Of a DNA stretch of 64,000 nucleotides, positions 3,945-23,672 are shown in pieces. Made by a program: the position numbers and the translations under genes. Source of the stretch: an uncultured Pirellulaceae bacterium (GTDB taxonomy: Bacteria > Planctomycetota > Planctomycetia > Pirellulales > Pirellulaceae); contig CALKCK010000009.1 in NCBI GenBank assembly GCA_938083195.1, positions 124,001 to 188,000 on the forward strand, given 5' to 3'. A model generated the notes under the pieces. That model was given only the letters and a program-made list of their open reading frames with translations, was not told the origin of the DNA and made no database searches. Within the stretch, counting starts at the first letter, position 1. Each line of letters opens with the position of its first letter.

Positions 3945-5078
3945 CTATCTAATTTTCGGAAGCGCGAGCGGCTCCTTCGAGTTGGTCGGAGGCGGGGCAA
4001 GGGGCAATTCAAGATCCTCCTCGTTACCGCTAGATTTTCGCTTAACGGTAATTCGAATCGTTTCGCCTGCCTCAAATCGATTGATTAGTTGCTTCAAACG
4101 CAGCATATCGTTGACGCGATTATCATTGATACTTAACAGAATGTCTCCTGCTTCCAACTTCACTCGACTAGCGGGGGAGTCAGGATTGACCTTATTCACA
4201 AGAATTCCATCACCGAGTGGATTAGGACCAGACTGGATACCAATAAATGCAGGACGAATGTATTCCCCTGCTTTCAAACGGTCCAACAGCTTGTTCGCGT
4301 TGGCCAGTGGAACAGCAAAACCAATTCCTGAGTCATACCATTCCACTCCCGCCCCAACCGCTTGAGATTGAGGATTCATTGGAACGCAAATGCCAAGCAC
4401 ACGCCCCTCAACATCGACCAATGGACCGCCATAATTGGCAGGACTAATATTGGCGTCGGTCTGAATCGCACGACCGCCGATTCTATTTTTTGCACTAATA
4501 ATCCCCGTTGACATCGCGGGACTGGTATCTCCATAACCAACCCCGAGAGAAATTGCCCATTGACCAACCTTGATCTTGGACTCATCCACCATCTCTGGGA
4601 TTGGCAAATCCGTCAGGCCATCAATTTTTAAGAGACAAATTTTCCGTGTATCATCGCGGCCAACAAGCTTGGCAAAATGGCGTTCTCCACCGCTCAAAAT
4701 GACCGAGATCACCGGCGGTCTTTGAATAAAATTAAAAGTGCTCGTAAGAATAAATCCGTCAGAGGAGATTATGATCCCAGTCGTATTCCCCTCTCCCTGC
4801 TTCCGAATCCCCCCAATCCTTCCTTGCACTGCTGAAACACCACCATACGACTCAATGGTAACCAATGAAGGCGCAACGCGACTGGCAGCACTACGAAACG
4901 CTTTTGAAGTGAGCGCCATTGCTTCCATCAACTCCGCTTCAGAAAGCTCAGAGACCTCTGCGTCGACTGCATTAACCTCCACCTCATTATTGTCTGTTTG
5001 AGCAACCACAAATCCTAATGGAGTGACCAGCAGTCCACACAAGCACCCAAGTACAAATTGAAAAATTTTATCAGGCAT
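3945..5078 (-). CDS. HtrA/DegP-like pseudoprotease with PDZ domain (all three triad residues lost)
   Basis: Exported trypsin-fold protein with a C-terminal PDZ domain, third of three tandem HtrA-like genes. The protease fold is recognisable but the catalytic residues are not. Numbered from the longer possible start at 5129: the TNNHVV position reads TSTFNF (His to F132), the DLALLKI position reads KICLLKI (Asp to K163), and NPGNSGGPL reads SPANYGGPL (Ser to Y233). The PDZ region near the C-terminus (DGILVNKVNPDSPASRV...GDILLSIN) looks intact. The start is set at the ATG at 5078, giving a signal peptide MPDKIFQFVLGC...FVVAQ, with GGAG 9 nt upstream; starts at 5084, 5093 and 5129 are possible. 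It lies 88 bp after the previous gene. Binding or regulatory rather than proteolytic function is inferred. Confidence 0.85.
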   Translation of the reverse strand: MPDKIFQFVLGCLCGLLVTPLGFVVAQTDNNEVEVNAVDAEVSELSEAELMEAMALTSKAFRSAASRVAPSLVTIESYGGVSAVQGRIGGIRKQGEGNTTGIIISSDGFILTSTFNFIQRPPVISVILSGGERHFAKLVGRDDTRKICLLKIDGLTDLPIPEMVDESKIKVGQWAISLGVGYGDTSPAMSTGIISAKNRIGGRAIQTDANISPANYGGPLVDVEGRVLGICVPMNPQSQAVGAGVEWYDSGIGFAVPLANANKLLDRLKAGEYIRPAFIGIQSGPNPLGDGILVNKVNPDSPASRVKLEAGDILLSINDNRVNDMLRLKQLINRFEAGETIRITVKRKSSGNEEDLELPLAPPPTNSKEPLALPKIR

Positions 5079-5166
5079 ACACATCCACTCCATCTTCCAG
5101 ACGAACAACATGCTGTTTCTCAGTGTCAATTAATTAGTTTGTTGAAACAATCACCAACACAAACCG

Positions 5167-6183
5167 TTACTTCTTTAATCGCGGCGCAATCCTAACACGC
5201 ATCATTTCGACGCCGCGCTTAACAATCATCAAAACTTCTTCTTCTGGCCGTAAGGATTTAAGTGATTCAGCGTAGTCTTTTAAATTGCCAATTTTTTCAC
5301 CGGCAATCGACACGATCATATCATCACTTTTCAATTTTGCTTTGGCAGCGGGTGACCCTCGAACCACTCGATCAATATAGGCTGGATTGTTTCGCCCACC
5401 AAGCGTAAACAAAACGACTCCAAATTCAACATCCTGCTGTTCCAGTACAGGTTGAGTCTCACCCGTTACACTCGCCTTCCCAGTCACAAATTCAAAAAGC
5501 ACTGAACTGGGTACCGCGTAATTAAGGCGTGTATTGGTCTCCGAACTGTTAATGATCTTTCCAACAATTCCAACCAAGTTCCCACGGGGCGTCACCACGG
5601 CACCGCCAGATGCACCTGGGTTACTGGTTATTGCATCAATGAGAACCAACTCCCCTCGGTAAGCCACATCGCGTTTGGTCAACCTCGCCTCCATCGTTGT
5701 CCGCAACGAAATCACACCCAACATTGCCGAGACTGGTTCATCCTTATCAGCCACTTTGAATGCATTGCTTAACGCAATAACCCAATCCCCTTTTTCTCCA
5801 ACGGACTCTTCTGAAAGCTCAAAAAAACTAGGGGTATCAGCTTGGATTTTGAGCAATGACAACTGCGTCTCTCGATCACGTTTCAAAATGGTTGCCATGT
5901 GTTCTGCTCCATCAGCCAAGACTACCTTGACTTGCCTTCCATCAAGAAAAACGCCTTGGGATGAAAGAATTAGCCCGTCTTTCGAGACAATAATTCCAGT
6001 CGCAAAACCCTCGACTTTACCAGCCGATGCGCCAAACACTTTCACCATCTTTGGCTGTGAATTCGAAATCGCCTGATCAATAAAACTCGGCTGATCTTTC
6101 TGTTGCGCAAAGGCAAGATGATTGCCGCACACCAGCACCACGCATCCCATCAGCAAAGCCATCCCCCAACCGAATATATTCAA
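5167..6183 (-). CDS. HtrA/DegP-like protein with PDZ domain, His and Asp of the triad missing
   Basis: Exported trypsin-fold/PDZ protein, middle gene of the HtrA trio. Signal peptide 1-27 ends HLAFA-QQ. The nucleophile region NPGASGGA keeps S192, but the His site (expected TNNHVV) reads SSQGVF with G77, and the Asp site (expected DLALLKI) reads QLSLLKI with Q107. With one triad residue it is unlikely to be a normal serine protease. The PDZ domain covers about 255-335 (YIDRVVRGSPAAKAKL). The start codon is TTG at 6183, supported by GAGGAGA 7 nt upstream; no ATG lies before the signal peptide core. It sits 54 bp after the active HtrA and in the same direction, so co-expression is likely. Confidence 0.87.
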   Translation of the reverse strand: MNIFGWGMALLMGCVVLVCGNHLAFAQQKDQPSFIDQAISNSQPKMVKVFGASAGKVEGFATGIIVSKDGLILSSQGVFLDGRQVKVVLADGAEHMATILKRDRETQLSLLKIQADTPSFFELSEESVGEKGDWVIALSNAFKVADKDEPVSAMLGVISLRTTMEARLTKRDVAYRGELVLIDAITSNPGASGGAVVTPRGNLVGIVGKIINSSETNTRLNYAVPSSVLFEFVTGKASVTGETQPVLEQQDVEFGVVLFTLGGRNNPAYIDRVVRGSPAAKAKLKSDDMIVSIAGEKIGNLKDYAESLKSLRPEEEVLMIVKRGVEMMRVRIAPRLKK

Positions 6184-6237
6184 TTTAAATTCTCCTCAAA
6201 ACAGACGACGCGACCCGACCCAAGTTCACTGTGAAAT

Positions 6238-8073
6238 TCACTTCTTCTTGTTGTTTGCAAGAAAAAATTCATCGCCTACATCCTCCAGCCACTCGAAATC
6301 CGAATCGACCACTTGCAGCTTAACGCTTTCATCGAGCCCCATGATCCTCTGACGCTTAAGCGGCAATTGCACGGGGCCTACCTGTGTCCACGAAGAAAAA
6401 GTCGAACCTCCACCGATCAGACAATCTCTCTCAAGCGATGATTTGACCAAACTGACCTTTGGCTTCCCGTTTACGTCGTACATGGCAAACCAGCAATAGG
6501 CTGTGTCCCCCTGGGGTGGAACGACTTTGAAACGATACGCATTTTCACCCATTGCTTTATCGCTACCGTCTATCAGCACCTTCCCAAATAACTCTAATGG
6601 TTTTTGCCGAAAAACTGAGCCCATCATCAGCGCCTCGCCAAACCCCCATCGTGCCTGGGCTTCTCCCAAGGTCAACTCGGTCGTCTTTCCCGACTCGGTC
6701 ACCCAAAAAGAATCACCATCGTATTGATAGACGACCTCCTGATCGTCCATGACTTGATTCACACGGATTCGACCATCAGACGCCAGCCACGTTTCTTGCG
6801 TCCCTCGTCCGTTTCCGCCCTCTAAAATTTCACCCGTCAATTTAGCCACACCAACCGACGAATCTGTGCGAATACTCGCTTTCCATTCATCAAGAATTCG
6901 TTGAGCATAACCCCGATTGATTTCCGGGTGACGGATATCACCTGGATTGGCTGACAACAATGCGATCATCTCGCGCTGCCGTTCTAATTGCTTCTTTTTC
7001 TCAGGATCCTTTTCGTCTTTCCCACCCTGGCCACCGCGGAGGCGGGGCTTGGCATAAGGAAGGCCGAAAGTCCGAACGATTATTTGACGTTCAGTCCCGT
7101 CTCGCTTGCGAATCAAAAGCTCGGCAGGCCAGTCTTCAGGTAACGTGCAGATTAGATTCGTAAATTGATTGGCGTTCTTTACCTTCTCTCCCTCAAACTC
7201 CAATAATTCATCTCCAAGATCGAGACCTGCCGAAGCGACCGGCGCATCTCGGTTCAATTGAGAGCAAACCACTTTCCCACCTCGATCGGAAAAACTCGCA
7301 TCCAGCGTCGCGTGCTCCACTAACTTGGTCGCTAATAAATCGGGAATAAAGTTCTTTATTTGATTCGCAGAAATAGCGTAACCTAATCCAACATTCACAC
7401 GGCCACGCTCTTTGAAACTCCCTCGCCCATTAATTCCAATCACTTCGCCTTTGAAGTTGAATAATGGGCCACCCGAGTTTCCAGGATTAATCGACGAGTC
7501 CACCTGAATACAATTTCCATAAACCAGTTGGTTCTGCCCCGCGCCCGGTTGATACCGTTTCACCCCACTCACGATTCCCAGAGTTACTGTAGGTACTTGA
7601 TCCTCAGTCAAAATAAATGGATTCCCCATTGCCAACGCCCAGTCGCCAACCTTAACCGCGTCTGAGTCCCCCAATGGCGTCGCAGGGAATACTGCCTTGC
7701 CTTCCAATTGAATGATTGCAAGATCACCTCCCGGGTCCGTACCGATCAATTTCCAACGATACAACTGACCATCGGCCAAGCCACCCCATCCTTTGACGCC
7801 AGCCCCCATAATCACATGGTGGTTGGTTAAAACGATTCCGCTGGGGTCGATAATCACCCCCGAACCGCCGCCCTGGCGATCTTCATCGTAAATGGCCACA
7901 ACACTCTGGATTACTCGATTGATCGCATGGATTCGATAACGTTCAATCGCCGCAACTCGTTGCCGGTCTTGCAAGCTAAGATCGTCGTCAGCGACTAGAT
8001 GGCAGCAGGGGGCAATTAGAATGCACACGAGCCAAGGAAAAACAAAACGCATCCCAATGTGCTGTTTGATCAT
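6238..8073 (-). CDS. HtrA/DegP-like serine protease with PDZ domain and long C-terminal extension
   Basis: Envelope serine protease expected to degrade or process damaged exported proteins. Signal peptide about 1-28. The trypsin-like domain (about 45-250) has an intact triad: H86 in LTNHHVI, D117 in GGDLAII, S200 in NPGNSGGPL. One PDZ domain follows (about 262-345, APVASAGLDLGDELLEFEGEKV). A roughly 250-residue C-terminal part (beginning with a charged linker near 350) is predicted beta-rich and I do not recognise it. At 611 residues it is longer than a usual DegP/DegS because of this extension. An alternative ATG is at 8052. It is the only member of the trio with full catalytic potential and precedes the two degenerate paralogues. 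Confidence 0.92.
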   Translation of the reverse strand: MIKQHIGMRFVFPWLVCILIAPCCHLVADDDLSLQDRQRVAAIERYRIHAINRVIQSVVAIYDEDRQGGGSGVIIDPSGIVLTNHHVIMGAGVKGWGGLADGQLYRWKLIGTDPGGDLAIIQLEGKAVFPATPLGDSDAVKVGDWALAMGNPFILTEDQVPTVTLGIVSGVKRYQPGAGQNQLVYGNCIQVDSSINPGNSGGPLFNFKGEVIGINGRGSFKERGRVNVGLGYAISANQIKNFIPDLLATKLVEHATLDASFSDRGGKVVCSQLNRDAPVASAGLDLGDELLEFEGEKVKNANQFTNLICTLPEDWPAELLIRKRDGTERQIIVRTFGLPYAKPRLRGGQGGKDEKDPEKKKQLERQREMIALLSANPGDIRHPEINRGYAQRILDEWKASIRTDSSVGVAKLTGEILEGGNGRGTQETWLASDGRIRVNQVMDDQEVVYQYDGDSFWVTESGKTTELTLGEAQARWGFGEALMMGSVFRQKPLELFGKVLIDGSDKAMGENAYRFKVVPPQGDTAYCWFAMYDVNGKPKVSLVKSSLERDCLIGGGSTFSSWTQVGPVQLPLKRQRIMGLDESVKLQVVDSDFEWLEDVGDEFFLANNKKK

Positions 8074-8161
8074 ACTGTCACTTATCCGTTAAGCCACTTT
8101 CAAATTTCATCCAAGTTCGATGAACCAATCCTCAATCGATCAAAGCACGCAATCGAACTTT

Positions 8162-9463
8162 TTATTTTGTTTTTAAAAACCGGGCTTCGCCCCAATTCGC
8201 GTGATCTCCAAGATCGAATTCAGCCCCTGGTGAAACCACCAAAACGACTTCTTTAATCCCCTCTATATCCACATCTATTTCCAAAGGACCACCGCCGCCG
8301 GTCACTCGCTCTGACCAAAGTTCGATGCCATCACCGCGAACAATCATTTGACAATCGCCGCGTCCCTTGGTTTCGGCTGCGATCCCTGCGACAGCGGAGA
8401 ACCGGTCAAACTCCGCTTCATTCGCAAATACAAGCCTTGATGAAGCTTGCATTCCCAATCCCTTTTTGAAAGACCTGATCTCATCAGAATCCTTCAAGCG
8501 GATCTCAAGCGGATTGCCCGAAACACTCAGGTTTTTTTTCCAAGGTCGCTGAAAAGCAAAGATGGACTTTTCCTGAACCTCCAGCGGTTCTTGGTCGGAG
8601 AGATACCTTAAACGATCCGATTTAATCGCGATCGAAACTACAATCCCCGCAGGAACTGGAACAGAATTCCCGGAAGTGACTCCCACCTCAAAAACGCCAC
8701 CTTCTAATTCGAGAATTTCACCGACAACCCGAGACCCATCGATAAGCTGAATCGCAGCAGTAGCCCCTTCAGGTTTTTCTAAACCCAGATCAGCTGTGAT
8801 GATTGCCTTGACTTTTCCAAGACCAATCTTCTTCAATTCACCTTTATATTTGATCCTTACGAATTCCAAATCAACCGCTTCTAAAATCCCCTCAACTACT
8901 CTCTCACCCGAGGAAGTATCCACGACAACCATATCAAAGTCGGCCGAAGGCGTTTTAATTTTTCGATCTATCAAGGGCGAATTCGCCCATACAATCGCAC
9001 GCAACAATTCGAGCGGCAATTCAGGCGTCCCGAGGGACGAAACCGATTTAATTTTCTCATCTGCGATGGACACAGAATCTATCCACAGTTCTCCACCACC
9101 GACAAATCCCAACCTTATCTTGTCGCTTGGAATGGTGCTAAGTTTTTTTGCCGTTTTAATGGAGAGCACCTGCCGAATGTTTAAGCCCGGCGGTATTGCA
9201 TCCCCGCCAACCTGCCCCCCCGCAGCGATAGTCTTCAGCGAGGACTCGATTGTCGTGCCATTGATCAATTCCATAGACACCTTGCCCAACCCGTCTTCCT
9301 GCGTTGAAGCGTTAGCGGCGGGAAACAACCAATTGCCCTGGAAGTTCTCTGGTAAAAAACATTCGCCAAGGCAAACACCAAGCAGCATCAACCCCCAAAC
9401 CAGCAACCGATTGGGGGAAAAAGACCGACCATTCATATCATTTTTAAGCAATTGGAAAATCAT
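8162..9463 (-). CDS. Secreted beta-repeat protein of unknown function, first gene of the HtrA unit
   Basis: No family recognised with confidence. An N-terminal signal peptide (around MNGRSFSPNRLLVWGLMLLG) is followed by several copies of a strand pattern of the type LIDGSRVVGEIL...VPVPAGIVVSI, also seen as INGTTIESSL and GERVVEGILEAV...GLGKVKAI. This same 'DG-x-x-x-G' pattern occurs in the proteins at 2845 and 26469. The C-terminal 120 residues resemble a beta-sandwich binding domain (ELWSERVTGGGGPLEIDVDI). The start is uncertain: ATG at 9463 or 9436; a longer reading from 9535 would run into the terminator at 9521-9557 and is unlikely. It is transcribed 88 bp ahead of the active HtrA, so it may be a partner or substrate of the proteases (inference). 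Confidence 0.68.
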   Translation of the reverse strand: MIFQLLKNDMNGRSFSPNRLLVWGLMLLGVCLGECFLPENFQGNWLFPAANASTQEDGLGKVSMELINGTTIESSLKTIAAGGQVGGDAIPPGLNIRQVLSIKTAKKLSTIPSDKIRLGFVGGGELWIDSVSIADEKIKSVSSLGTPELPLELLRAIVWANSPLIDRKIKTPSADFDMVVVDTSSGERVVEGILEAVDLEFVRIKYKGELKKIGLGKVKAIITADLGLEKPEGATAAIQLIDGSRVVGEILELEGGVFEVGVTSGNSVPVPAGIVVSIAIKSDRLRYLSDQEPLEVQEKSIFAFQRPWKKNLSVSGNPLEIRLKDSDEIRSFKKGLGMQASSRLVFANEAEFDRFSAVAGIAAETKGRGDCQMIVRGDGIELWSERVTGGGGPLEIDVDIEGIKEVVLVVSPGAEFDLGDHANWGEARFLKTK

Positions 9464-9520
9464 GTTTCTATTGTATCTCACAGCTGGTTCAATGTCTTGA
9501 GAGCAAGTGACGAACAAGCA

Positions 9521-9557
9521 ATAAAAAAACGGCACGTCCCACGTAGGGCAGTGCCGT
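9521..9557 (-). terminator. Rho-independent terminator ending the moxR operon
   Basis: Inverted repeat with arms ACGGCAC (9529-9535) and GTGCCGT (9551-9557), extended by an inner CCC/GGG pairing, followed on the minus strand by a run of seven T residues (A-run at 9523-9529 on the plus strand). It lies about 30 nt beyond the TAA at 9588-9590 and upstream of the next minus-strand gene, dividing the moxR operon from the HtrA unit. Confidence 0.85.
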
Positions 9558-9587
9558 AATAGTTATCTAAGCTAATGGAACTGAGGC

Positions 9588-9854: not shown

Positions 9855-10658
9855 TCAGGTACCGCCTTTTTTACAGTTTGAACTGCACTCTTTCTTCTCC
9901 TCCTCTTTGATGAGTTTCGTCAGCATACTGACGATCTTATCTTGCTCGTCTTGAGTGACTTCATCCGTCTCAACCAATTCCAAACGCCGACGTGAGTAAT
10001 CCATTCTCTGGTAAACATCATCCAGCTTACCTTTCTGAATCGATTGAATCTGCTGAACTTGCCGCCACGCACTCACGCGTAGTCGTTCAGGCGCATCGGG
10101 GTTGAACTGAAGAAACCGCATCAATGATTCGATGGCTTCCTGATTCTTCAGCAGCCCTGCTTGCGCGACTCCTAAATAATACTGTGCACTACCTTGATGG
10201 ACCGTGTAGCTACTAAGATCGCCAACTAGTTTTTCCAAACACGGCATGGCATCTTCGAAACGCTCTTCGTTCATGAGCGTTCTTGCAAGGTAAAAACTCG
10301 CATCCCCTGCCAAGTACTTATCCTCGGACTGCTGCAGCGGAGAAAGAAGTTCAATGGCTTGTTCATAACCTCCACTAGCATCCGATGCGGCAATCGCATC
10401 TGAATATTGAGGGTACATCAGTATCAGCGACTCAGTGAGGGCATCAGAAAAATCGCTGTCGATTTCGGAAACCGTTTTTTGAATCGCTGCCTTCTGGGGC
10501 GCAGGTACGGACTTCAGCGAATTGATATGCGCCAGAAAAGATGCTTTGACCTTTTCAGAATGCTGATCGTTTGCGTCTACCGAATTCGTCACTCCGACGA
10601 ACATGACACCCATCGCCAACAGGCCGAGTGCGGTTTGGAATAATCGTCCAACTCTCAT
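9855..10658 (-). CDS. Secreted TPR-type protein, last gene of the moxR operon (possible internal stop at its end)
   Basis: Exported helical-repeat protein. From the ATG at 10658, chosen because GAGG lies 8 nt upstream, it begins with a signal peptide (MRVGRLFQ...SVDA). It then has TPR-like helical pairs: YEQAIELLSPLQQSEDKYLAGDASFYLARTL style repeats, EDAMPCLEKLV, and NQEAIESLMRFLQFNPDAP. The reading frame ends in CSSNCKKGGT at a TGA, but is followed in frame by a further 88 open codons (see 9588-9854). As annotated it is 267 residues; read through the stop it would be about 356. TPR proteins in MoxR/Bat operons commonly act as periplasmic scaffolds (family knowledge); the specific role here is unknown. 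Confidence 0.8.
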   Translation of the reverse strand: MRVGRLFQTALGLLAMGVMFVGVTNSVDANDQHSEKVKASFLAHINSLKSVPAPQKAAIQKTVSEIDSDFSDALTESLILMYPQYSDAIAASDASGGYEQAIELLSPLQQSEDKYLAGDASFYLARTLMNEERFEDAMPCLEKLVGDLSSYTVHQGSAQYYLGVAQAGLLKNQEAIESLMRFLQFNPDAPERLRVSAWRQVQQIQSIQKGKLDDVYQRMDYSRRRLELVETDEVTQDEQDKIVSMLTKLIKEEEKKECSSNCKKGGT

Positions 10659-10841
10659 TTCAATTACCTCATTGATTTCGCAAGCAATAGTACGCAATAT
10701 CAGTCTTCATCTATCTCATATTATTCAACAAAAGGCCACCGAGACCATCACCTTAAACTCGAAAAAAACCAATTCAGCCACTAAAAATCGCTTTTCAGCA
10801 ATTTAAACCGGTTTTCCTGCCCTCTATTAGAACCCCAAATA

Positions 10842-12779
10842 TCACCGATCGTTCTCTTTTTCCATGATTCGTTCGGTCATTTCCAGTAATTTAGCCTGTA
10901 ATTGGGCCGCACTGATCGCTTCTTGGTCCAATAACTTCTCCAAATCCTCTTGCCCTCGCAATTGCTCAACTTTCTTCGTCCGACGGTTGAGTCGCATCTG
11001 TTGAATCCTTAACACTTTCAATTCCGCAGATTTTTTCAACAAAGGCTGGTCACCTCCTCCACCGCCGCCTCCGCCGCCACCGCCTCCGCCGCCGCCCTCG
11101 TTTTGAGCTTCTTTCAATGCGTCGATTAGATCAGCAATGGTCGATTCTATTTCTTTTTGCAACAACTGAGTCAACTGGCCAGTGCGTTCTAAAGCCAGCA
11201 ACTCAGAAGCCCGATCTAGGTCGACTTTCAAATCTTGCACAATTTCAGGAAACACAATACTGGTACCATCCTCCAAAAGCAGATCGTAAGCCTGTTGGCC
11301 CAACTCGCTAATTTCAGCCTCTTCATTTGAAATCCGTAACATCAGCAACTGATCTCGCCGACCTAGACTTTTCAAATTAGTCAATTTGTCATCCAACTCA
11401 ACCGTCATTACACCCGCAATGACCTGGCGATCATACATTTCTTTAAATCGCGCCTCTAACCGAGCAAGTTTTTCCTGACGAGTTTCTTCACGTAATTGCT
11501 TTAACCGGTCTTCAATTTCTTCCAAAGCTTCTTCCATCTGCTTCTCAGCTTGCTTCTGTTTCTCCTGAGCTTCCTTTGGATCTTGGTTTTCCAAATCACC
11601 CGAAGCACCTTTCATCGACTCACCCGCCTGATCCATTTTACTCTGACCAGGCTGTTTCTGATTACCAGAATCAGCCTGTTCGCCGGGCTCCTCTTCTGGC
11701 TTAGGAGCCTTTTTCATCTCTTCTAGAATGTCCATCGTCTTGTCACGATTACGACGCTGCTCTTCCGCCATTTGCTGAAGCGCCTCTGGCGGCAATGTTT
11801 CAATTCGCCGCTTTTCTTTTTTGATCTCGCTAAGTGCCTGATTCATATCGGCCAACGCTTTTTCTTCTTCCGTTTTAGCATCGTCTGGCTTGCCGGTTCC
11901 TAATTTTTCTTCAGCTTTTTTCTGATGTTCAATCGCCTTATCCAATGCCTCCTGCCCCGGCTGGGCAGGTTCCGATTGACTGCTTGGCTTACCCTCACTT
12001 GGCTTGCCGTCACTTGGCTTACCATCACTTGGCTTACCATCACTCGGCTTACCATCACTTGCCGATTCAGCGTCTTCCGAGCCTGATATCTCTTTCTTAA
12101 GTGATTCTGTCTGTTTTCGAATTTCGAATTGCTCATCGGCCACACCGTCGAGCGCCCGCAAACCCGCATTGGATTTCGCATCCGTATTTTCGATCACCTC
12201 TGTTTGCTTGCCAATTAGGTTCTCTAATTTTTTGATCTGGGCTTCCAGATTTTTGATTGTCTTATCTTTTTCGGCAATCTTTTCGGTATCTTTGGTTTGA
12301 CTTTTCTGCTCCTCCAACCGCTCTTGTATTTGCTGTTTCCAGCGTTCGAGCATTTTCTCTTGGTCTTTCTTTGATGCCTTTTGATCTTTCTGCTGCGTAA
12401 GCAGCCGAATCAAGGACTCCAAATTTTGAATGACTTCATCCAGCAGTTGGTCGGCCTCCTGATACTTTTCGGTATCGAGCAGCAAACTAATCTTCGCCAT
12501 TTTCTTGGTGATTAGCCGTTCTTTAGATTGTTGATAAGCGGCAACCAAAAGCTTAGCGCGTTCGGGTTCTTTTTCGCGGAGCTTTTCAGCAATGACGGTT
12601 AGTTTCGTCTCCAATTCGGACATTTTCCGTTCGACGAGACGTTGCCGCACCCCCAACTCAGTTTTCAAGTCCGAGCGTTTTGCATCATCCTGCGCTACCA
12701 GAACGCCTAGATTTGCGACCGAAACAAGGGTGGCAATGATTGCCATTGTTAAAAAACTTAATCGGTTTTCTACTACCAT
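10842..12779 (-). CDS. Secreted, highly charged coiled-coil protein with SDGKP repeats and a poly-Gly tract
   Basis: A long, Lys/Glu/Gln-rich protein predicted to be almost entirely coiled coil. A signal peptide or N-terminal anchor (MVVENRLSFLTMAIIATLVS...VLVAQ) starts at the ATG at 12779, which has AGGAG and CAGGAGA directly upstream. The coiled coil is interrupted by five tandem SDGKP/SEGKP units (about 11985-12060), a Pro/Gln/Gly-rich linker, and a run of 15 glycines (11052-11096). No enzymatic motif is seen. It follows the large membrane protein by 66 bp and precedes the TPR gene by 183 bp. A structural or adaptor role in the envelope is inferred from composition and from its place in the MoxR/VWA operon. 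Confidence 0.8.
   Translation of the reverse strand: MVVENRLSFLTMAIIATLVSVANLGVLVAQDDAKRSDLKTELGVRQRLVERKMSELETKLTVIAEKLREKEPERAKLLVAAYQQSKERLITKKMAKISLLLDTEKYQEADQLLDEVIQNLESLIRLLTQQKDQKASKKDQEKMLERWKQQIQERLEEQKSQTKDTEKIAEKDKTIKNLEAQIKKLENLIGKQTEVIENTDAKSNAGLRALDGVADEQFEIRKQTESLKKEISGSEDAESASDGKPSDGKPSDGKPSDGKPSEGKPSSQSEPAQPGQEALDKAIEHQKKAEEKLGTGKPDDAKTEEEKALADMNQALSEIKKEKRRIETLPPEALQQMAEEQRRNRDKTMDILEEMKKAPKPEEEPGEQADSGNQKQPGQSKMDQAGESMKGASGDLENQDPKEAQEKQKQAEKQMEEALEEIEDRLKQLREETRQEKLARLEARFKEMYDRQVIAGVMTVELDDKLTNLKSLGRRDQLLMLRISNEEAEISELGQQAYDLLLEDGTSIVFPEIVQDLKVDLDRASELLALERTGQLTQLLQKEIESTIADLIDALKEAQNEGGGGGGGGGGGGGGGDQPLLKKSAELKVLRIQQMRLNRRTKKVEQLRGQEDLEKLLDQEAISAAQLQAKLLEMTERIMEKENDR
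11052..11096 (-). repeat. Poly-glycine coding tract (15 Gly codons)
   Basis: Fifteen consecutive glycine codons, mixing GGC, GGA and GGT, form a flexible hinge in the coiled-coil protein. The mixed codons make pure slippage of one trinucleotide less likely. Confidence 0.85.
11985..12060 (-). repeat. 15-bp tandem repeat encoding five SDGKP units
   Basis: Five nearly identical 15-bp units encode four SDGKP and one SEGKP in the linker of the coiled-coil protein. The units differ at only one or two bases, suggesting recent expansion. Confidence 0.9.
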
Positions 12780-12845
12780 TCTCCTGCTCCTCTTTGACCA
12801 ACCCGACTCGCAACACATAACGTCTTATTCGGCAAGTTGTTAGAT

Positions 12846-15092
12846 TTATTTATCAAAAATATCGTCGTCATCTCCGTCGAATATCCCATCGTCTGGATTA
12901 ATACGATCTTTGATACCGCCTTTTATTTCCGTCGTTTTGCTTTTCACTTCGAGGAAATCATTGATAATTTCCTGAAAGCTCTCTGAATCCGCCATCGCAC
13001 TCAGAATTCGTTTCATTTCCTCGAGAATCGCCAGCTGCAACTCGACCGACTGATCCACAATTTCCTCTAATTCGGCTTGATCTCGAATTGCTCGTCGAGC
13101 GTTATCAAATTGACGACTGGCTAATGAGATCAACTCTGAATCGAGTTGCCGAATTGGCCCAATAATCCGCTCATCAAATCGCGTTTCAATTCGTTGCTCA
13201 GGAGCCAATTGGTTTTCTGCTTCATCCAGACGATTATTTTTAACCTCGACCAAAAACTCTTCGAAACGATTTGCGACGCGATCCAATACAGTGCCCACTC
13301 CTTTTTGTTTTCGCACCAACGCAATCAATGCTGCCTCGCGTTTAGAGTCGAACTCCTCTTGGCTCACTCCCTCCGCTCGCGTTCTTGCTGCGATCGCCTG
13401 AACCTCTGTCATCAACGCCAACTGAACCTGATAGGCCTGATCATCAAATGCTTTTCGTTGCTCAATTTCTCGCCTTAACAAATCTGCCCGCAACTCTTCA
13501 TCCGAGACGACTCTCAATAGAAATTCTTGAGAACGACCGACATTCGCTGTCCCGGGGTGATTATCTCTCGCGGTGACCGAAAATCGGAAACTAGTGCCCG
13601 GAGTTAGACCCAATGGTTCGAGATCTAATTCGGCAAAATCTTTGATTTGCCTCACTGGCAGCCCATCTTCACCGGGGCGAGGTTCCGCGAACACCAACTC
13701 TCGCTGCCCAGTTTTTTCATCATTATCACCCGTTTTCCAGGTCGCATCGAAAGCCAATTGCGTCAACCCATAAGAATCAACCGCCTGATACGATGTCGGC
13801 AAATTCGCTCTGGCGGATACCAACCCGCTGATCCCTAGCAGGCTCGCTCTAATTTTAGGCACATCATCGTCTTTCACCGTCACACGAAACTTAGATCGAC
13901 GCGCGCCCTTCATGCCAGCGCTGTCGACCAATTCAAATTCGTATTCGCCACCAACTAATGCCTGCCCCTCCCCCGGTATAGTCAAAGTAAATTCGGTATC
14001 ATTCTCGCCAACCTGCATCGCATAAACTTCTTCATCAAGTTTCAAGCTGGCGGCGGATAAGGATTTATTCGTCTTAATTCCAATCTCCAACCGACTGCCG
14101 ACTAAAACCGAATGCGGCCCCGCGCCCTGCAATTCCTTGTGTGTAATCCCCGTATAGGCCGGCATCAGCACATTCAAATCTAATTGAATTACGCTGGGTG
14201 GCTCAACGAGTTTAACGTCGACCCAGGAAGTCACATCATCGCCACCGCTTGCCCGGAATCGAAATGGAGATGAAACATTATGAAACACGAAAACATGTTC
14301 GCGTCCGTTTAATTTCCCCGTCGGTTTCATCTGGTGTAATGTTTTCCCACCTGGATGGCTGATTTCTAAAGAAACCGACACGTCTGTTTCAAGACTGTCT
14401 TCGCTCACGCGAACCAACTGACGATGATCTCCACCGCGAGGCAAGATCAACTCACCATCGACGGCGCCAACTATTTCGAGATACGTCGCTTGCGGCCACT
14501 GATCTTCAAGTAGCAAAATATTTCGATTGAACCAAGTTCTCAGAAAGTCCGTTTGCGAAACACCAACGCCTACCCCCGCAGTCATTGCAATCCCGGCTAT
14601 TAACAACAACCAATTTTGAAAATGCCGGCTAAGGTCGAGTGCTTTGGAGAAATCAACTGACTTCGATTTTTCGATTCCTTGCTCAATCGTCGCCGCTGCC
14701 AATTCCGCAGAGGTTCCCCATTGCTTCCATTCTTCCTCTCGAGACAACTGAACGCTTGAGAGCAAACTCTCCTTCAACTGGGGATTTTTATTTTCAACTT
14801 CGTAAATCAAGGCATCATCACTGAGTCGCGACAACAATGGTTTCAGCACCCGCAAACCAAAATACACAACCGCCACAATGGCCATCACAATCAGCATCAC
14901 TACCCGCTGAGCGAAGTCCATTTTAAAAAGGCGATCCAGAGCGACATCAAATGCAAGAACCGCCAAGATGGCGATCAACCATCGCCCCAGCCCATGGATT
15001 AAAATCCAACGCGTTAATTTACTCCGCATGCGAAGCAGTTTTTCCATGACCAATTTGGGCATGTTTTTAGAGGTTGTCGTGACCGATGTCAT
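12846..15092 (-). CDS. Large membrane protein, DUF4175-like plan, moxR operon
   Basis: Integral membrane protein of unknown biochemical role. Two transmembrane helices near residues 33-52 and 60-82 are followed by a cytoplasmic motif NPQLKESLLSSVQLS, a third helix near 155-175, then an exported beta-rich stretch (about 200-540, Ig/Cadherin-like: PPSVIQLDLNVLMPAYTG), a charged helical region, and an acidic tail ending DGDDDDIFDK. The arrangement resembles the DUF4175-type proteins of MoxR/Bat operons (tentative). AAGGTAAG lies about 10 nt before the ATG at 15092. It precedes the coiled-coil gene; together these two correspond in plan to the single fused protein at 30399-32108. Confidence 0.78.
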   Translation of the reverse strand: MTSVTTTSKNMPKLVMEKLLRMRSKLTRWILIHGLGRWLIAILAVLAFDVALDRLFKMDFAQRVVMLIVMAIVAVVYFGLRVLKPLLSRLSDDALIYEVENKNPQLKESLLSSVQLSREEEWKQWGTSAELAAATIEQGIEKSKSVDFSKALDLSRHFQNWLLLIAGIAMTAGVGVGVSQTDFLRTWFNRNILLLEDQWPQATYLEIVGAVDGELILPRGGDHRQLVRVSEDSLETDVSVSLEISHPGGKTLHQMKPTGKLNGREHVFVFHNVSSPFRFRASGGDDVTSWVDVKLVEPPSVIQLDLNVLMPAYTGITHKELQGAGPHSVLVGSRLEIGIKTNKSLSAASLKLDEEVYAMQVGENDTEFTLTIPGEGQALVGGEYEFELVDSAGMKGARRSKFRVTVKDDDVPKIRASLLGISGLVSARANLPTSYQAVDSYGLTQLAFDATWKTGDNDEKTGQRELVFAEPRPGEDGLPVRQIKDFAELDLEPLGLTPGTSFRFSVTARDNHPGTANVGRSQEFLLRVVSDEELRADLLRREIEQRKAFDDQAYQVQLALMTEVQAIAARTRAEGVSQEEFDSKREAALIALVRKQKGVGTVLDRVANRFEEFLVEVKNNRLDEAENQLAPEQRIETRFDERIIGPIRQLDSELISLASRQFDNARRAIRDQAELEEIVDQSVELQLAILEEMKRILSAMADSESFQEIINDFLEVKSKTTEIKGGIKDRINPDDGIFDGDDDDIFDK

Positions 15093-15184: not shown

Positions 15185-17749
15185 CTACAGCAACTTGTAC
15201 CATTTACGTAAAATCCACTCGATGGAAAGTAACACGACTGGCAATCCATAAAACAACCACCGCAGATAGGGATTCACATCCCAAAGCGGTTTCGGAGGAC
15301 TGTTAAATTCGGCCCGTGTTACCAACGTTGGCAACGCATCCGGCACACTAGCAAGTTGCTCCAATCGAAAATACTTTCCGCCTGATTGACCCGCGATTTC
15401 TGTCAATAATTTTTCGTTTAACCAATAAGCCCCCGACTCAGCGCTGGGAGGAACGACGCGAAAAGCGATCGGATCGATTAACTTACCCTCCGCATCCCCC
15501 GCCGCGAATGAAACCGTGCCTTCAAAATTACCAATTCGTTGGGCGACAAAAGTACCTTCATAACTGCCTTCTTGATTGGGAAGCATCTTCAACTCAACTG
15601 TCTGCGTTCGTCCGTCTTCCGCTCGCACGATTGCTTTTTGGACCGGAGCAGTCGATGGTTTGAACTGCTCATCCAACACTCTCGCAACCAATAATACGCG
15701 ATCTCCAAGCTCGAATTCAGATTTCTCAGTATCAATGAATCCCCGCCGTGAACCTTGTAAAGAACGCGTCTCTACAAGATATCGCACTACCTGTATCCAA
15801 AATCGGTCAAAGTACTGTGCTTGTACACCAACCGGTCGCCATCGAAAGGACTCCTGAAACCCAAGATATAAAACCGACCCAGCCCCATAACGGCCTGCAA
15901 CCATCAATGGTTGGTTACCCTCCGCGTTGACTTGATCTCCACTCTCCAACAGCACTCGCGCTGTCGGTTTGGCGGCAATCGCTGGAAAACTCCACAACAC
16001 ACTGGGAATCAAATCCCATATCTTTGCATTGTCTCCTGGATCACTGCGAAAACTCATTACCGGATGATCAAGGTTGTGATTGACCACTAACATCTGTCCA
16101 GAACGCATCTCTTTGGCAGACGCAAGGGCCTCCACTGTGTCGATAAACTCAGTATCTCCAAATCGGACGGGGAGTAAGTCGCGAATCGATTTTAAACGAT
16201 TCATCGTGACAAATTCACTGGTGTGTTGAGGGCCAGCCATAAACAAAACACCGCCTGCTTTAAACTTACAAAAGTCCTTCAGCAGATCCATCCAATTTTC
16301 ATCAAACTCCTCGGGATTGGGATCAAACATCATCACGACGTTATAAGCTCCCAATTCATCAATCGTTCGTGGCAACCGCGAGATGGGGGCATTTCCCTCT
16401 TGAGGCCGCGTTTCATCCATAGTCTGAAGCCAGCAGCTTAACGAAATGGTTTGATCCCGTTGAAGCAACTTATAAACATGCTGGTAATCCCAACTTGCTT
16501 CACCAGCAACCAACAGGACTTTCACCTTCTCATCGACAACTTCCATCTCAGAAGTAACACGTGCGTTATCTGCGACTTCGGTTTCATCTTCCAATTCTTT
16601 AACCTGCACCGTAAAAACATACTTGCCAGAACGGTTAAGAATGTGATCAAAATCAACTCGAATACGGCCACCATTGTCAGGAATCGGAACGTTTTTCGAT
16701 TTTACTTTTTCAGGTAATCCGGGCTTACCAGTTCGTGCATCCACTTGTTGCTGAATCAATTCCACTTCAATTTGAGCAGGCATACCCTCGCCGCCACCCT
16801 GCGAAGTCTGTAAAACCGCTTCAATTTCGAACGGCTCGTCCGGGTAAGCTCGATCCCGCACATAGACTTCAGTTACCGCTATATTTTTTGGTGGATTCGG
16901 ATCACCGACGCCGACAACAAAGATTGGCACACCTTGATCCGCTGCCTTCTGAGCAATCTCAATCGGATCTTCACTTCCATTGTGCTGCCCATCGCTGATC
17001 AAAAGTATCGCAGACAACCGACTCGCATCATCGAGCGACTCCCGCAACGCTTGCCAAATATCAGTCCCTAACCCACTCGCTTCAAGATCTGGAATCGTCT
17101 TTCGGATAAGGCCTTCTGCTTCTTCACCTTCCAAATCATCCGACGAATCCGGGGCATCTTGTTTTTCACTTTCAGTCTGTTTTTTAACATTGGCAGGTAT
17201 GACTGCGATTGGCACATTACCATCAGAAAAGTTGATAACTCGCAGTGCACCTTTGTCTTTTAGCTGTTCCAACAAGTCTGGATTTTTTGCAAAAGCCTCA
17301 TTAACGAGTGCAGAACGCTTTACCTGCCCATCGCCAATCGAAGCGACGGGCAGACCGGTGAGCTCGGCCAACTTCTTCTGCTGATCTTCACTGCGATAAC
17401 TGTCACCACGATCGAACGAAAGAGAACTATCTCGTAACATTGCGATCGTTGGCTTGATTTCATTTACCTGTTGATAAAATACCGAGGGCTTCAAGAACAT
17501 CATTATTAGCAGCAGCAACACACACAGCCGCAACGCCGCCATCGCCAATTTGATGGGCATTGGGCAAGTATTGATCTCCCTGCGATACATCCAAAAAACA
17601 CCAAACACCACCGCCGCTAAAATCGCAACTAAAACAAAGACGCCCCAAGATTCCGGCATGTTCGACCACTGCAATCTGGGAGTACCAGCGCGATCGGGGT
17701 CGGCACCCACCAACCATTCCAACAATCTACTTTCGGCAATAAAATTCAA
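15185..17749 (-). CDS. Membrane protein with VWA and glutamine-amidotransferase-like domains
   Basis: Has two N-terminal transmembrane helices (about 34-54 and 67-87), a VWA-like domain with the MIDAS pattern DSSLS in IAMLRDSSLSF and a later LLISDGQHNG, beta-sandwich domains, a class-I-glutamine-amidotransferase-like segment (KVKVLLVAGEASWDYQHVYK ... GGVLFMAGPQH) lacking an obvious catalytic cysteine in a nucleophile elbow, and a C-terminal helix near 830-850. This plan is shared with the protein at 20304-22616, so the two look like ancient paralogues. The start is TTG at 17749 preceded by GAGAAAACG; the next Met would remove conserved sequence. Spacing of 92-112 bp to both neighbours supports one transcript. 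VWA/MIDAS proteins bind metal-dependent partners, and here the MoxR ATPase is a likely one. Confidence 0.82.
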   Translation of the reverse strand: MNFIAESRLLEWLVGADPDRAGTPRLQWSNMPESWGVFVLVAILAAVVFGVFWMYRREINTCPMPIKLAMAALRLCVLLLLIMMFLKPSVFYQQVNEIKPTIAMLRDSSLSFDRGDSYRSEDQQKKLAELTGLPVASIGDGQVKRSALVNEAFAKNPDLLEQLKDKGALRVINFSDGNVPIAVIPANVKKQTESEKQDAPDSSDDLEGEEAEGLIRKTIPDLEASGLGTDIWQALRESLDDASRLSAILLISDGQHNGSEDPIEIAQKAADQGVPIFVVGVGDPNPPKNIAVTEVYVRDRAYPDEPFEIEAVLQTSQGGGEGMPAQIEVELIQQQVDARTGKPGLPEKVKSKNVPIPDNGGRIRVDFDHILNRSGKYVFTVQVKELEDETEVADNARVTSEMEVVDEKVKVLLVAGEASWDYQHVYKLLQRDQTISLSCWLQTMDETRPQEGNAPISRLPRTIDELGAYNVVMMFDPNPEEFDENWMDLLKDFCKFKAGGVLFMAGPQHTSEFVTMNRLKSIRDLLPVRFGDTEFIDTVEALASAKEMRSGQMLVVNHNLDHPVMSFRSDPGDNAKIWDLIPSVLWSFPAIAAKPTARVLLESGDQVNAEGNQPLMVAGRYGAGSVLYLGFQESFRWRPVGVQAQYFDRFWIQVVRYLVETRSLQGSRRGFIDTEKSEFELGDRVLLVARVLDEQFKPSTAPVQKAIVRAEDGRTQTVELKMLPNQEGSYEGTFVAQRIGNFEGTVSFAAGDAEGKLIDPIAFRVVPPSAESGAYWLNEKLLTEIAGQSGGKYFRLEQLASVPDALPTLVTRAEFNSPPKPLWDVNPYLRWLFYGLPVVLLSIEWILRKWYKLL

Positions 17750-17861: not shown

Positions 17862-20273
17862 CTAGTCAACCTGTTTTGCATCCAACATGTAAAGTCGGTT
17901 CGCACCGTGAACCCAAAATCTCTCACCATCACTATATAAATTACCAACAGGCGCGCTAGTTCCTAAATCAACATGCACTTGTTTAAGCACTTCTGCACGA
18001 CCATTTTTACCCTTGAGTGACAGTTGATAAATACGATCTTCTACCGGCAAATAAATCCCTTTGGGCGTCACAATCCCCCGGCCCAATGACTGCCGTCCGT
18101 CAAACATCTGCTCCGTACCCCAAATCATCCGCCCCTGTCCTTTGAGATCGTACGCAACGACCGTTTCAAACCCACCGGCATACAGTACGTCCTCGTAGAC
18201 GCCGATTATATAATCAACCTTAAATCCGACTGGACTCATTTCTGTCCGCCAAATCAGTTCTCCTGTGTTACGGTCAAAAGCTTCAATGGAGTCGGTATCC
18301 GAACTAAAACAGACCATCTGTTTTCCATACGGAATTACAATGTCACTCGACCAACCATCAAAATTCAATCGGTTTACCGTCCAACCGCTGCGACGTCCAA
18401 AATTATCCGCCTGCCCCACTCTCTGATAACGCTTGGCAAATCGGACGGTTCCGGTCGCTGGATCCAACACAAACACAACGCCCATCCCGCAACTGACAAA
18501 TAAATCACTTCCCTCAAGCGAAAGCTCAATCGCGGCCCAAGGGACCGATCCCGTTTCTGGTTCGTCACACAAAAACGACTGCCATACCGTTTTTCCTTCG
18601 CGTTTGGGATCCAGAGCATAAATTGAAATCGCGCCACCATTATTGACGGGAACAATCACAACATCTCCAAATCCAACGGGCGCCGCCATAAACCCACCAC
18701 TCTCAAGCCACTCAGGCTCGCCCCCTTCATCATTAAAGGCGGCGACTTCTTCTGCTGATTCTTCACGAGGCAATTTCCACAAAACGTTACCCGACTCTGC
18801 ATCGTAGGCCGTCAGAAAATTCTCCCTCGTCCTCCGAAATGTTGCATTCCACTGAGGGGCAACCTTGGGCTGCTTATGGATATTAGACTCATCGAAAGAT
18901 TTACCCTCGATAGAATATGCAATGTCTTGATAAATCGACATCTGTTGAAAAACTCGGTCGCCAAACAGATTTATCTCGGCAGATTTTTCAGGGAATTTCG
19001 ACGCACCATTTGCCTGCCCAGTAATTCGACCGCCCCAATTACGGCGAATCGTGGACATCATCATCGTCGCATCATCGATTTGAAATGCGTTGTTCCATAC
19101 GCTCCGCCAAGCGATCGCAGCATCCACAGAATCTTGCAAGCCGCCAGCTTTCGCAAGCTCTTCCACTTTCTGGCGACTCCAAACTGCAAGATCAGCACCC
19201 GTTTTAAAAAACACACGATCTCCGTCCATCAACAACTCACCAGCTGGCCTCCAGCTCTTATTTCTCCAAGCATCAATCAGCCGCACCTCAGCTGGGTCCA
19301 AGGTCTCGAGGACGCTTTCTCCAGAAGCCTTTCGGCCTGTCAAGAGCTTCCCCTCAATATCAGCCCTGCGGTTGTACCGCTCCTTAGGTTCAAAATAAAA
19401 CTGCCAACTCGCTTCCAAGTCCCCCTCCATCATCTCGTCGGGAACCGACTGCATAACACCGTATCGGTGAGAATTACCGAGCGCCATCTGCCAATCCAAA
19501 TTGACTTCGTCCCGCTCGTCGGAGACCGCCAATTCCTCTAGCGAGCGACTGACCAACACTGCTTTATCTGATTTTCGATCAATGGCCAGCGCTTCGGCAA
19601 TCGCAATTTTCGCCGCCGGCACATCCCCTAAAAATGCCTGGCAGAGTGCAATTTTTGCATAAACCTGATCCATGGGAACGGTCGGATCTGGATACTGATT
19701 GGCGATTTTTTCAAACATCCGCCGGGCACCAATGAAATCAAATTGGTCGAGATAAATACTACCAAGATTAAACGCCGCTTCGTCACCAAGAGAACTAATG
19801 AAATAATTGCGCACAACGCTATTTAATGCCGTCACATTGGAATCGTCAGCCGCTTCCGCCAGAATCTCTTTCGCAGCGGCATCAGCAATTACGCGATAAG
19901 CCACCAATCCATCCGGCGGGAGATCGGCGAGGATCGCCTCAACTTGTTCGACAAGCGAATAATAGATTTCACCATCACTGGAAAACAATGCATCCCCACT
20001 CCGATTCAGGACGGCCTGCCACAGCGTACAAGCAACCCGATACTGCCCGTCCTTTCGCATCCGCTCGGCTTTTTCTAGCACGTCTTCAAGTTCTGGATCC
20101 GTCTTTAACACAGCTCCAGATTCCGCCACGTCATCTTGCCCCGCAGGGGCCATTGGCCGCCCAAAAATCATCTGCTTAGCAAAACTACCTTCAGGAAACG
20201 CCGCGGCCACCGTTGACCAAACACCAATGATCACGGCAACCGACAGGGTTTTATTAATGAGTAAATTCGTCAT
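17862..20273 (-). CDS. Secreted TPR plus PQQ-like beta-propeller protein
   Basis: Signal peptide (about 1-25) followed by TPR-like helical repeats (about 60-260: DGQYRVACTLWQAVLN, LGSIYLDQFDFIGARRMFEKI) and then a beta-propeller from about 330 to the end. The blades show the PQQ-repeat signature, e.g. AYDAESGNVLWKL, VLDPATGTVRFAK, AFDRNTGELIWRT and AYDLKGQGRMIWG. Such repeats form binding or scaffold propellers; enzymatic use with PQQ would need metal and quinone ligands that I cannot identify, so a dehydrogenase is not proposed. ATG at 20273; 30 bp after the BatA-like gene, a tight fit for translational coupling. Resembles the BamB-like propellers used in envelope assembly, but with an added TPR half. 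Confidence 0.82.
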   Translation of the reverse strand: MTNLLINKTLSVAVIIGVWSTVAAAFPEGSFAKQMIFGRPMAPAGQDDVAESGAVLKTDPELEDVLEKAERMRKDGQYRVACTLWQAVLNRSGDALFSSDGEIYYSLVEQVEAILADLPPDGLVAYRVIADAAAKEILAEAADDSNVTALNSVVRNYFISSLGDEAAFNLGSIYLDQFDFIGARRMFEKIANQYPDPTVPMDQVYAKIALCQAFLGDVPAAKIAIAEALAIDRKSDKAVLVSRSLEELAVSDERDEVNLDWQMALGNSHRYGVMQSVPDEMMEGDLEASWQFYFEPKERYNRRADIEGKLLTGRKASGESVLETLDPAEVRLIDAWRNKSWRPAGELLMDGDRVFFKTGADLAVWSRQKVEELAKAGGLQDSVDAAIAWRSVWNNAFQIDDATMMMSTIRRNWGGRITGQANGASKFPEKSAEINLFGDRVFQQMSIYQDIAYSIEGKSFDESNIHKQPKVAPQWNATFRRTRENFLTAYDAESGNVLWKLPREESAEEVAAFNDEGGEPEWLESGGFMAAPVGFGDVVIVPVNNGGAISIYALDPKREGKTVWQSFLCDEPETGSVPWAAIELSLEGSDLFVSCGMGVVFVLDPATGTVRFAKRYQRVGQADNFGRRSGWTVNRLNFDGWSSDIVIPYGKQMVCFSSDTDSIEAFDRNTGELIWRTEMSPVGFKVDYIIGVYEDVLYAGGFETVVAYDLKGQGRMIWGTEQMFDGRQSLGRGIVTPKGIYLPVEDRIYQLSLKGKNGRAEVLKQVHVDLGTSAPVGNLYSDGERFWVHGANRLYMLDAKQVD

Positions 20274-22616: not shown

Positions 22617-22699
22617 CTTTGTCTTTTCCTTTTGTCGCCCGTGCCACCTGAACAATCACCTACCGCGTCCAAAGTGAGCCATAAAATATTTCGCTTACC

Positions 22700-22754: not shown

Positions 22755-23672
22755 TTAGAGATTCTTCCTTCGTGACTTTGACCGAAAATTGAGATAGCTC
22801 GAAAGCACCCCATCCAACGGCTTCGAGGTGTCAAGCAAAACGTGGTCGACCCCCGCTGTAGCACAAACTTTCTTGACTCGTGTCATATACCGTTCCACCG
22901 CTTCCATATACGACTTCCGCAACGAACGGGGTTCAGCATGCAATTCTCCAGCAGACTCCATTCCCTGAAAAAGAGTATTATCTTGAAACGGGAACTCTAA
23001 CTCGTCGTGGTGCATTACATGAAAAACAACAACCTCATGTCGCCGCAAGCGAAACTGAGCTAGTGCTTTGGCTAATTCTTCAGGATCGATAAACAAATCG
23101 GAAAACAAAGCAATGACACCACGTTTTCGAATTTGAGAACCCAAGGCAATAAACGGATCACTGACATCCGTCGTATTGGCCGGTTCCGTCTGCTCAAGTT
23201 CATGCAGCAAAAGCTTTAAATGAGACGGATGAGACGAGGATTTCAGATTTTTGTCAATCTTATCACTGTACAACACCAAGCCAACCGAATCCTGTTGCTG
23301 CTGCATCAAGTACCCCAAACTGGCTGCAGCCGTTGCAGCATAATCAAACTTACTCCAACCTGTTTCCTCGCCGTAACGCATTGACTTGCTGCAGTCCACG
23401 ATGAGATGACACTTCAGATTGGTCTCCTCTTCATATTCCTTAATGTACAATCGGTCGGTTTTAGACCAGACTTTCCAATCGATATGCCGCAGATCGTCAC
23501 CCGGCGAGTACTCACGATGAGCAGCGAATTCGATGGCAAACCCATTAAACGGACTGCGATGCTGTCCAGATATAAAACCCTCAACAACCAACCGAGCGCG
23601 AACCTCTAGACGTTTGATTTTGTCGAGTGTTTTGGAATCCAGATATTTGTTTGCCGGACTATCAGTCGCCAT
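22755..23672 (-). CDS. DUF58 domain protein (VWA-like, MoxR partner)
   Basis: A 305-residue DUF58 protein. The family hallmark SPGDDLRHIDWKVWSKTDRL lies at 56-75, followed by YIKEYEEE, and the degenerate VWA site IVDCSKSM (D93, S95, S97). No transmembrane helix is evident, so it should be cytoplasmic. DUF58 genes are almost always next to moxR and bat genes, and the encoded proteins are thought to work with the MoxR ATPase in assembly or metal insertion (family knowledge). Starts at ATG 23672, 85 bp after moxR. Confidence 0.93.
   Translation of the reverse strand: MATDSPANKYLDSKTLDKIKRLEVRARLVVEGFISGQHRSPFNGFAIEFAAHREYSPGDDLRHIDWKVWSKTDRLYIKEYEEETNLKCHLIVDCSKSMRYGEETGWSKFDYAATAAASLGYLMQQQQDSVGLVLYSDKIDKNLKSSSHPSHLKLLLHELEQTEPANTTDVSDPFIALGSQIRKRGVIALFSDLFIDPEELAKALAQFRLRRHEVVVFHVMHHDELEFPFQDNTLFQGMESAGELHAEPRSLRKSYMEAVERYMTRVKKVCATAGVDHVLLDTSKPLDGVLSSYLNFRSKSRRKNL

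Follow-up and report, generated by a model that had tools for sequence, protein, structure and literature searches.

The window analysed here (the whole stretch of 64,000 nucleotides, positions 124,001 to 188,000 of contig CALKCK010000009.1 from an uncultured Pirellulaceae bacterium) carries three neighbouring genes for HtrA-like proteins, all on the minus strand and transcribed in the order HtrA_A, HtrA_B, HtrA_C (A, B and C below). A (6238..8073, 611 aa) has an intact triad, H86/D117/S200; the pseudoprotease B (5167..6183, 338 aa) has G77/Q107/S192 at the triad sites and the pseudoprotease C (3945..5057, 370 aa from the ATG at 5057) has F108/K139/Y209. These ORFs and residue states had been proposed in an initial annotation of the window and were confirmed by script; the F132/K163/Y233 that it gave for the third copy are the same residues numbered from a TTG at 5129. 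Gene starts are predicted (longest or nearest in-frame start), and C would have 394 aa if the TTG were taken, but the ATG is the more likely start because a signal-peptide-like stretch (judged by eye) follows it directly and because of the ORF lengths in the five closest orthologues (377 aa in four, 379 aa in one). The N-terminus of A is likewise signal-peptide-like by eye.

The Pfam Trypsin_2 model matched all three proteins over its cut-off (A 107, B 66 and C 77 bits), and PDZ did so in B (residues 265-332) and C (one domain, 296-368 in the 394-aa numbering). In A the PDZ match (residues 260-331) reached only 21.4 bits against a cut-off of 27, and the region from about 345 to 611 had no Pfam match. 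The common trypsin fold and PDZ domain of the initial annotation are thus borne out, with the PDZ weak in A. Trypsin_2 plus PDZ_2 was found in all 41 members of an alignment of B relatives (A2). The order of a trypsin-like domain followed by PDZ that marks HtrA/Do proteins is seen throughout the trio (in A with its PDZ below cut-off), and the NCBIfam model TIGR02037 matched all three, below its cut-off of 416.2 bits (A 208.7, B 124.6, C 161). In one alignment of 261 domains the triad sites of A, B and C share columns. An AlphaFold2 model of C (370 aa, 43-row alignment; mean pLDDT 87.8, pTM 0.83) had DegS, DegQ and HhoA as its best PDB matches (DegS 4rqy: E 1.8e-26, TM 0.72 by target length).

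The trio lies at the end of a MoxR-DUF58-BatA/VWA gene row, every member of which is on the minus strand. Directly upstream of A is a gene for an NPCBM-domain protein (8162..9535), followed by genes for a TPR protein (9855..10697, Pfam TPR matches below cut-offs) and a protein that is coiled-coil-like by eye (10842..12818, no Pfam match), these three being conserved neighbours. Beyond them come a large protein without a Pfam match that we take to be 'DUF4175-like' (12846..15092), a VWA-domain protein (15185..17749), a PQQ-repeat/TPR protein (17862..20273), a BatA-like protein (aerotolerance regulator N-terminal; 20304..22655), a DUF58/VWA protein (22755..23672) and, at the apparent head of the row, an AAA+ ATPase that is presumably of MoxR type (23758..24828). 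From the common strand and the spacing we infer that the row from MoxR to the trio would form a single transcript. None of the eleven row proteins of the window that were scanned with Pfam matched a family named VMAP or iSTAND.

Among 123 loci with more than 1.4 kb of sequence before A, the nearest match there was NPCBM in 108, TPR in four and DUF58 in one, with none in ten. The rest of the row is less constant. Stretches 61-73% identical to the presumed MoxR gene occur in L156, L159, L166 and L243; in the first three of these, MoxR, DUF58, BatA-like and VWA stretches lie farther upstream of the trio, and in L243 MoxR and DUF58 directly precede A-B-C. Only the middle of the row was seen in L157, while L158, L165 and L167, stretches upstream of three trios of the window's type, yielded no gene of the MoxR row. 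The 'DUF4175-like' gene has matches in 116/118 genomes of the class, including genomes that have no trio, and has only weak ones in family f23, a family that carries the trio. The close-knit unit is thus formed by the three HtrA genes, which the MoxR row often accompanies but is less firmly tied to: row genes are absent from those three stretches, and the distribution of the 'DUF4175-like' gene is out of step with that of the trio. MoxR and DUF58 proteins are expected in the cytosol, which, set against the signal-peptide-like N-termini of the trio, makes direct contact between them doubtful.

The recurrence of the three-gene order elsewhere, which the initial annotation had raised as a point to check, was assessed by searching 296 genomes of the order with B and C of the window (a search in which any HtrA may match) and fetching the matching stretches. 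By tblastn, A, B and C lie side by side in most of these. All three genes are present in 138/151 locus entries, the window counted, and 137 loci besides the window, among them 20 from other classes, have the genes together on the same strand; it should be noted that loci were picked from B or C matches, so that these gene-order counts are conditional on that choice. The one-strand arrangement in 137 other loci, with the same pattern of residues, argues that the trio is not a chance assembly. The other 13 entries are without one or two of the genes. Two of them are cut, by the contig start (L074) or the contig end (L100), and in L099, L117, L145, L150, L151, L160, L204, L208, L210, L211 and L237 a gene is absent at its expected place in the fetched stretch, so that these 11 loci have either lost the linkage or lack a gene. 

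Profile searches of a class sample of 118 genomes found A in 86, B in 87 and C in 86; all three were present in 86 genomes, none in 31, and B only in one (G308, a borderline case). A gene was called present on the strength of a gap in the scores (for A, 452 or more versus 226; for B, 196 or more versus 130; for C, 276 or more versus 235), and the three lists were matched up visually; the margin is narrow for C and for the B of G308. The counts are not independent, as 29 of the 31 trio-less genomes belong to one family, f21 (the others being G300 and G017). In G267, which belongs to the same genus as the window, nothing of the A class was matched (the best score was 154 bits), and matches to B and C were only weak. 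Judged by these absences, the module is dispensable. In a phylum sample of 199 genomes searched with B, scores of at least 192 bits were obtained in 21/187 genomes outside the class, and in all 20 of those that were fetched (chosen, therefore, for the presence of B) A, B and C follow in order, judged by ORF ends. When the C profile was run against public genome contigs, the best 80 of 572 matches all had planctomycetal titles bar one 'bacterium'; the five closest among these 80 (84-91% over C) include three titled Mariniblastus.

Seven genomes have two copies of the trio: one is of the window's type, its C being short (359-429 aa), while in the other, which is the commoner type, C is long (mostly 647-768 aa). 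Short C forms also occur in further loci, for example L124 and L153, and each of three long C proteins scanned has two PDZ_2 stretches. The genes need not be adjacent: in G313 (a single contig) all are kept but unlinked, A at 4.06, B at 3.73 and C at 6.61 Mb (0.3 to 2.9 Mb apart), and in G310, G385, G352, G370 and G361 at least one of them is far off or on another contig. At the other extreme, A and B are fused in a single ORF in L076, L077, L145, L146, L147, L248, L258 and L302, and B and C in L288, L292 and L294 (L293 and L296 were left out of the count, since they agree with L076 and L077 in both contig and ORF length; within fused ORFs, H-D-S rows were assigned to A by preference and other rows to B). 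Because two of the A-B fusions (L248 and L258) are from other classes, it is probable that fusion has more than one origin. If the closest in-frame start is taken, a 4-base start/stop overlap joins A to B in 48/137 loci and B to C in 42/137. These overlaps and the natural A-B and B-C fusions make the hetero-oligomerisation suggested by the initial annotation plausible. An AlphaFold2 model of the A-B fusion of L147 (928 aa; pLDDT 71, pTM 0.57; folded with alignment A5, which holds fused and B rows only) has protease and PDZ strands as expected in both halves and a poor linker, and at that pTM no A-B interface could be read from the single-chain model.

Across the loci the three proteins have distinct and consistent residue states. 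An intact His-Asp-Ser triad, as required of an active HtrA/Do protease, is present in A in all 138 readable cases of 144 (unreadable in L115, L126, L127, L144, L256 and L257), in B in 0/148 and in C in 0/141, and orthologues with full triads, which would have told against the initial annotation, are therefore absent among these B and C domains. At the His column of B there is no His in any of the 148 (Ser 112, Gly 15, Asn 12, Thr 6, Gln 2, Ala 1). Its Ser column has Ala in 101, Pro and Gln in nine each, Gly and Tyr in five each, Ser (the window's own B counted) and Thr in four each, His and Phe in three each, and Val, Cys, Asn, Asp and Glu once each. Ala at this site is the rule within the class and was seen in 0/20 loci of other classes. 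In C the Ser column holds Tyr in 140 of the 141 domains readable (of 142, L137 being unreadable), with Val in L086, and the His column holds Phe in 100, Tyr in 14, Ile in 12, Trp in six and others in nine (one of them His). For B the five closest orthologues all read G-Q-S at the triad sites, and for C they read F-K-Y. Ser192 of the window's B was considered as a retained nucleophile and rejected: the five closest orthologues share this Ser, but in wider relatives the site is Ala, Gly or Ser, and it looks like a labile site rather than the last remnant of a decaying triad. Within the order the loop of B keeps NPG-x-x-GG and that of C is mostly xN-[Y]-GG. A loop arginine, which we take to correspond to R178 of DegS, is present in C in 87/87 and in A in 85/86 (one gap) and is not among the five commonest states of B in the order. 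C is also strongly conserved at non-catalytic positions.

In a tree of the protease domains (141 rows) A, B and C are each set apart from the other rows by a single branch (SH-aLRT 97, 96 and 99), the tree being a quick one with a single outgroup sequence and hence without a fixed root. Ka/Ks values (Nei-Gojobori) of the window genes against five close orthologues, whose ORFs are full-length, were 0.060-0.087 for A, 0.043-0.075 for B and 0.058-0.100 for C, far from the value near 1 that would have spoken for neutral decay. Within genera, on the protease plus PDZ stretches, medians were 0.074 (A, range 0.019-0.56), 0.105 (B, 0.038-0.418) and 0.145 (C, 0.043-0.441), with B above A in 25/29 pairs and C above A in 28/30; here dS was often about 1 or above, pairs with identity of 0.5 or less were left out, and saturated dS gave no ratio in 4/38 pairs for A, 8/41 for B and 5/41 for C. 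The A pair at 0.56 (L073/L084) is a comparison across two operon types. B and C, by these ratios, are under purifying selection that is looser than that on A. The separate clades and low Ka/Ks values led us to reject a stepwise decay, and the 'stepwise-degenerated' of the initial annotation is not supported, B and C being separate old clades each with its own residue states. Its remark on good reading frames holds: fetched B ORFs are at least 331 aa and C ORFs at least 355 aa, with none short. Flags of '1 stop inside' on some B matches were considered as signs of a pseudogene and discarded, as the fetched ORFs, among which there is no short one, span at least 97% of each best tblastn match above 100 bits; it seems that alignments overrunning a gene end gave rise to the flags.

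One active and two inactive HtrA proteins are therefore an old co-inherited set under purifying selection. Ka/Ks far below 1, the lack of short ORFs and the co-occurrence in the class sample strongly support a retained function for both dead copies, as the initial annotation had argued, and since the set recurs across many Planctomycetota it is very likely that they do a real job. As to what this job is, we think it probable, if only just, that the trio serves envelope proteolysis as an old module, inherited together, in which the active HtrA A works with B and C as dedicated pseudoprotease partners. We infer that B and C associate physically with A and control it, and prefer this to independent adaptors because of the fusions and the tight co-occurrence. 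HtrA-HtrA contacts would tie B and C to A, the two probably being subunits of a mixed oligomer, and B and C would supply non-catalytic functions, their PDZ domains reading substrate C-termini or an envelope signal. The pocket of B may bind peptides without cutting them (NPG-x-x-GG is kept and the Ser site is mostly Ala in the class) and that of C may be closed by the bulky Tyr, with the loop arginine common to A kept. The outcome would be that the single type of active site, that of A, is switched on, targeted or restrained, and the MoxR, DUF58 and VWA proteins of the row might act in the assembly or remodelling of membrane clients, or of the HtrA complex. Against a mixed complex it must be said that fusions and gene order are also compatible with a shared pathway lacking contact, that B and C change faster than A, that the module is dispensable and that the tie to MoxR is looser.

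A more ambitious version, which we put forward tentatively and would sooner doubt than assert, is an obligate heteromeric HtrA machine in several Planctomycetota classes, in which one oligomer contains a peptide-holding B and an allosteric, Tyr-plugged C and works with the MoxR AAA+/VWA membrane assembly system. Such a machine, if real, would be a counterpart of proteases with active and inactive subunits such as ClpP/ClpR. Alternatively, B and C may be free-standing PDZ/peptide-binding chaperones or adaptors that form separate homo-oligomers and act in the same pathway without contacting A. The loop of B, kept as in a Ser-to-Ala HtrA, fits this, as do the PDZ domains kept in both proteins (with two PDZ_2 stretches in each long C scanned) and the unlinked genes of some genomes, but the A-B and B-C fusions and the near-perfect co-occurrence suggest a closer coupling, and we regard this alternative as rather unlikely. 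Less probable again is that B and/or C have been co-opted to bind a new ligand and play no part in the control of A: the metal binding of MamO (PMC4794232) is a precedent and the conserved non-catalytic positions of C would be accounted for, but the tie to A would be left unexplained. That B and/or C are still catalytic through other residues is very improbable; the occasional Ser (4/148) and single Cys at the nucleophile column of B could be cited for it, but that column is Ala in 101/148 and otherwise chiefly P, Q, G, Y, T, H, F, V, N, D or E, the His column is without His in 148/148 B and 140/141 C, and C has no Ser. Decaying pseudogenes kept in frame by chance are hardly credible, for although the triads are lost and change is faster than in A in most within-genus pairs, Ka/Ks of 0.04-0.10 against close orthologues, single clades and the absence of short ORFs already contradict them.

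HtrA proteases are usually treated as homo-oligomers in which the switch operates within identical subunits. A widely conserved set with two dedicated dead relatives would offer a natural system for non-catalytic HtrA roles, with fused, split and unlinked trios and short and long C forms as built-in comparisons, and the trio links envelope proteolysis to the poorly understood MoxR/BatA rows in a phylum of unusual envelope biology. Searches of the open-licence literature listed no paper on this HtrA trio; PDZ proteins were counted in five Planctomycetes in PMC6411480, the main text of which does not use the word 'inactive'.

With DegS, DegQ and DegP (Do/HtrA) the trio shares its fold and domain order and the match of all three proteins to TIGR02037, but B and C are without the triad and the whole trio is below the cut-off of that model. 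The plant proteins Deg5/Deg8 form mixed HtrA oligomers and in this resemble the trio as proposed, but they are not known as active/dead pairs. The MoxR-vWA ternary conflict systems (eLife 2020, PMC7159879) combine MoxR and vWA genes with trypsin-like domains, as here, and in the effector position nearly all of these domains are inactive; there, however, the inactive trypsin is fused to vWA as effector, whereas here mostly separate HtrA genes follow a BatA-type row. The nearest precedent is MamE/MamO of magnetotactic bacteria, an active and a degenerate HtrA in one gene cluster (PLoS Biol 2016, PMC4794232), for which it is reported that MamO is needed for cleavage by MamE while its own triad is not, and that the effect needs the TauE domain, the protease domain alone being insufficient. 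MamO differs in that Thr occupies its nucleophile site and in its TauE domain and metal binding (PMC4794232), and it is one dead partner against the two here; scores of the window proteins with the NCBIfam models are at most 108 (MamE) and 39.1 bits (MamO) against a cut-off of 800. The dependence on TauE weakens a simple transfer of the MamE/MamO model to the trio, but the pair does establish that a dead HtrA can be required for cleavage by an active one.

In each of seven genomes (locus pairs L080/L072, L081/L075, L082/L071, L083/L077, L084/L074, L085/L076 and L086/L073) the trio occurs twice, as paralogous sets whose third member, C, is short (359-429 aa) in one and long (mostly 647-768 aa) in the other; L074 is without A, the active protease, because its contig begins there. 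In G267, a genome of the same genus as that of the window and listed as 95% complete, no A-class match was found (the top score was 154 bits) and the matches to the pseudoproteases B and C were weak, which reflects either loss of the trio as a unit or a gap in the assembly.

Downstream of its PDZ domain, A continues for a C-terminal stretch of about 265 aa (window 6238-7041) that has no Pfam match and may be a separate binding domain.

Outside the trio locus the window's genome holds two more tandem HtrA-like pairs, in the fetched loci L078 (locus positions 7115-9833, minus strand) and L079 (8465-10765, plus strand). The first member of each is HtrA-like, with a His-site motif (TAAHV/TAGHV) and GGDSGG present; in the second, Ser takes the place of the His and Cys that of the catalytic-site Ser (TCGGP/DCGGP). 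Judged by eye, PDZ seems to be inserted into the trypsin-like domain of this partner protein, splitting it.
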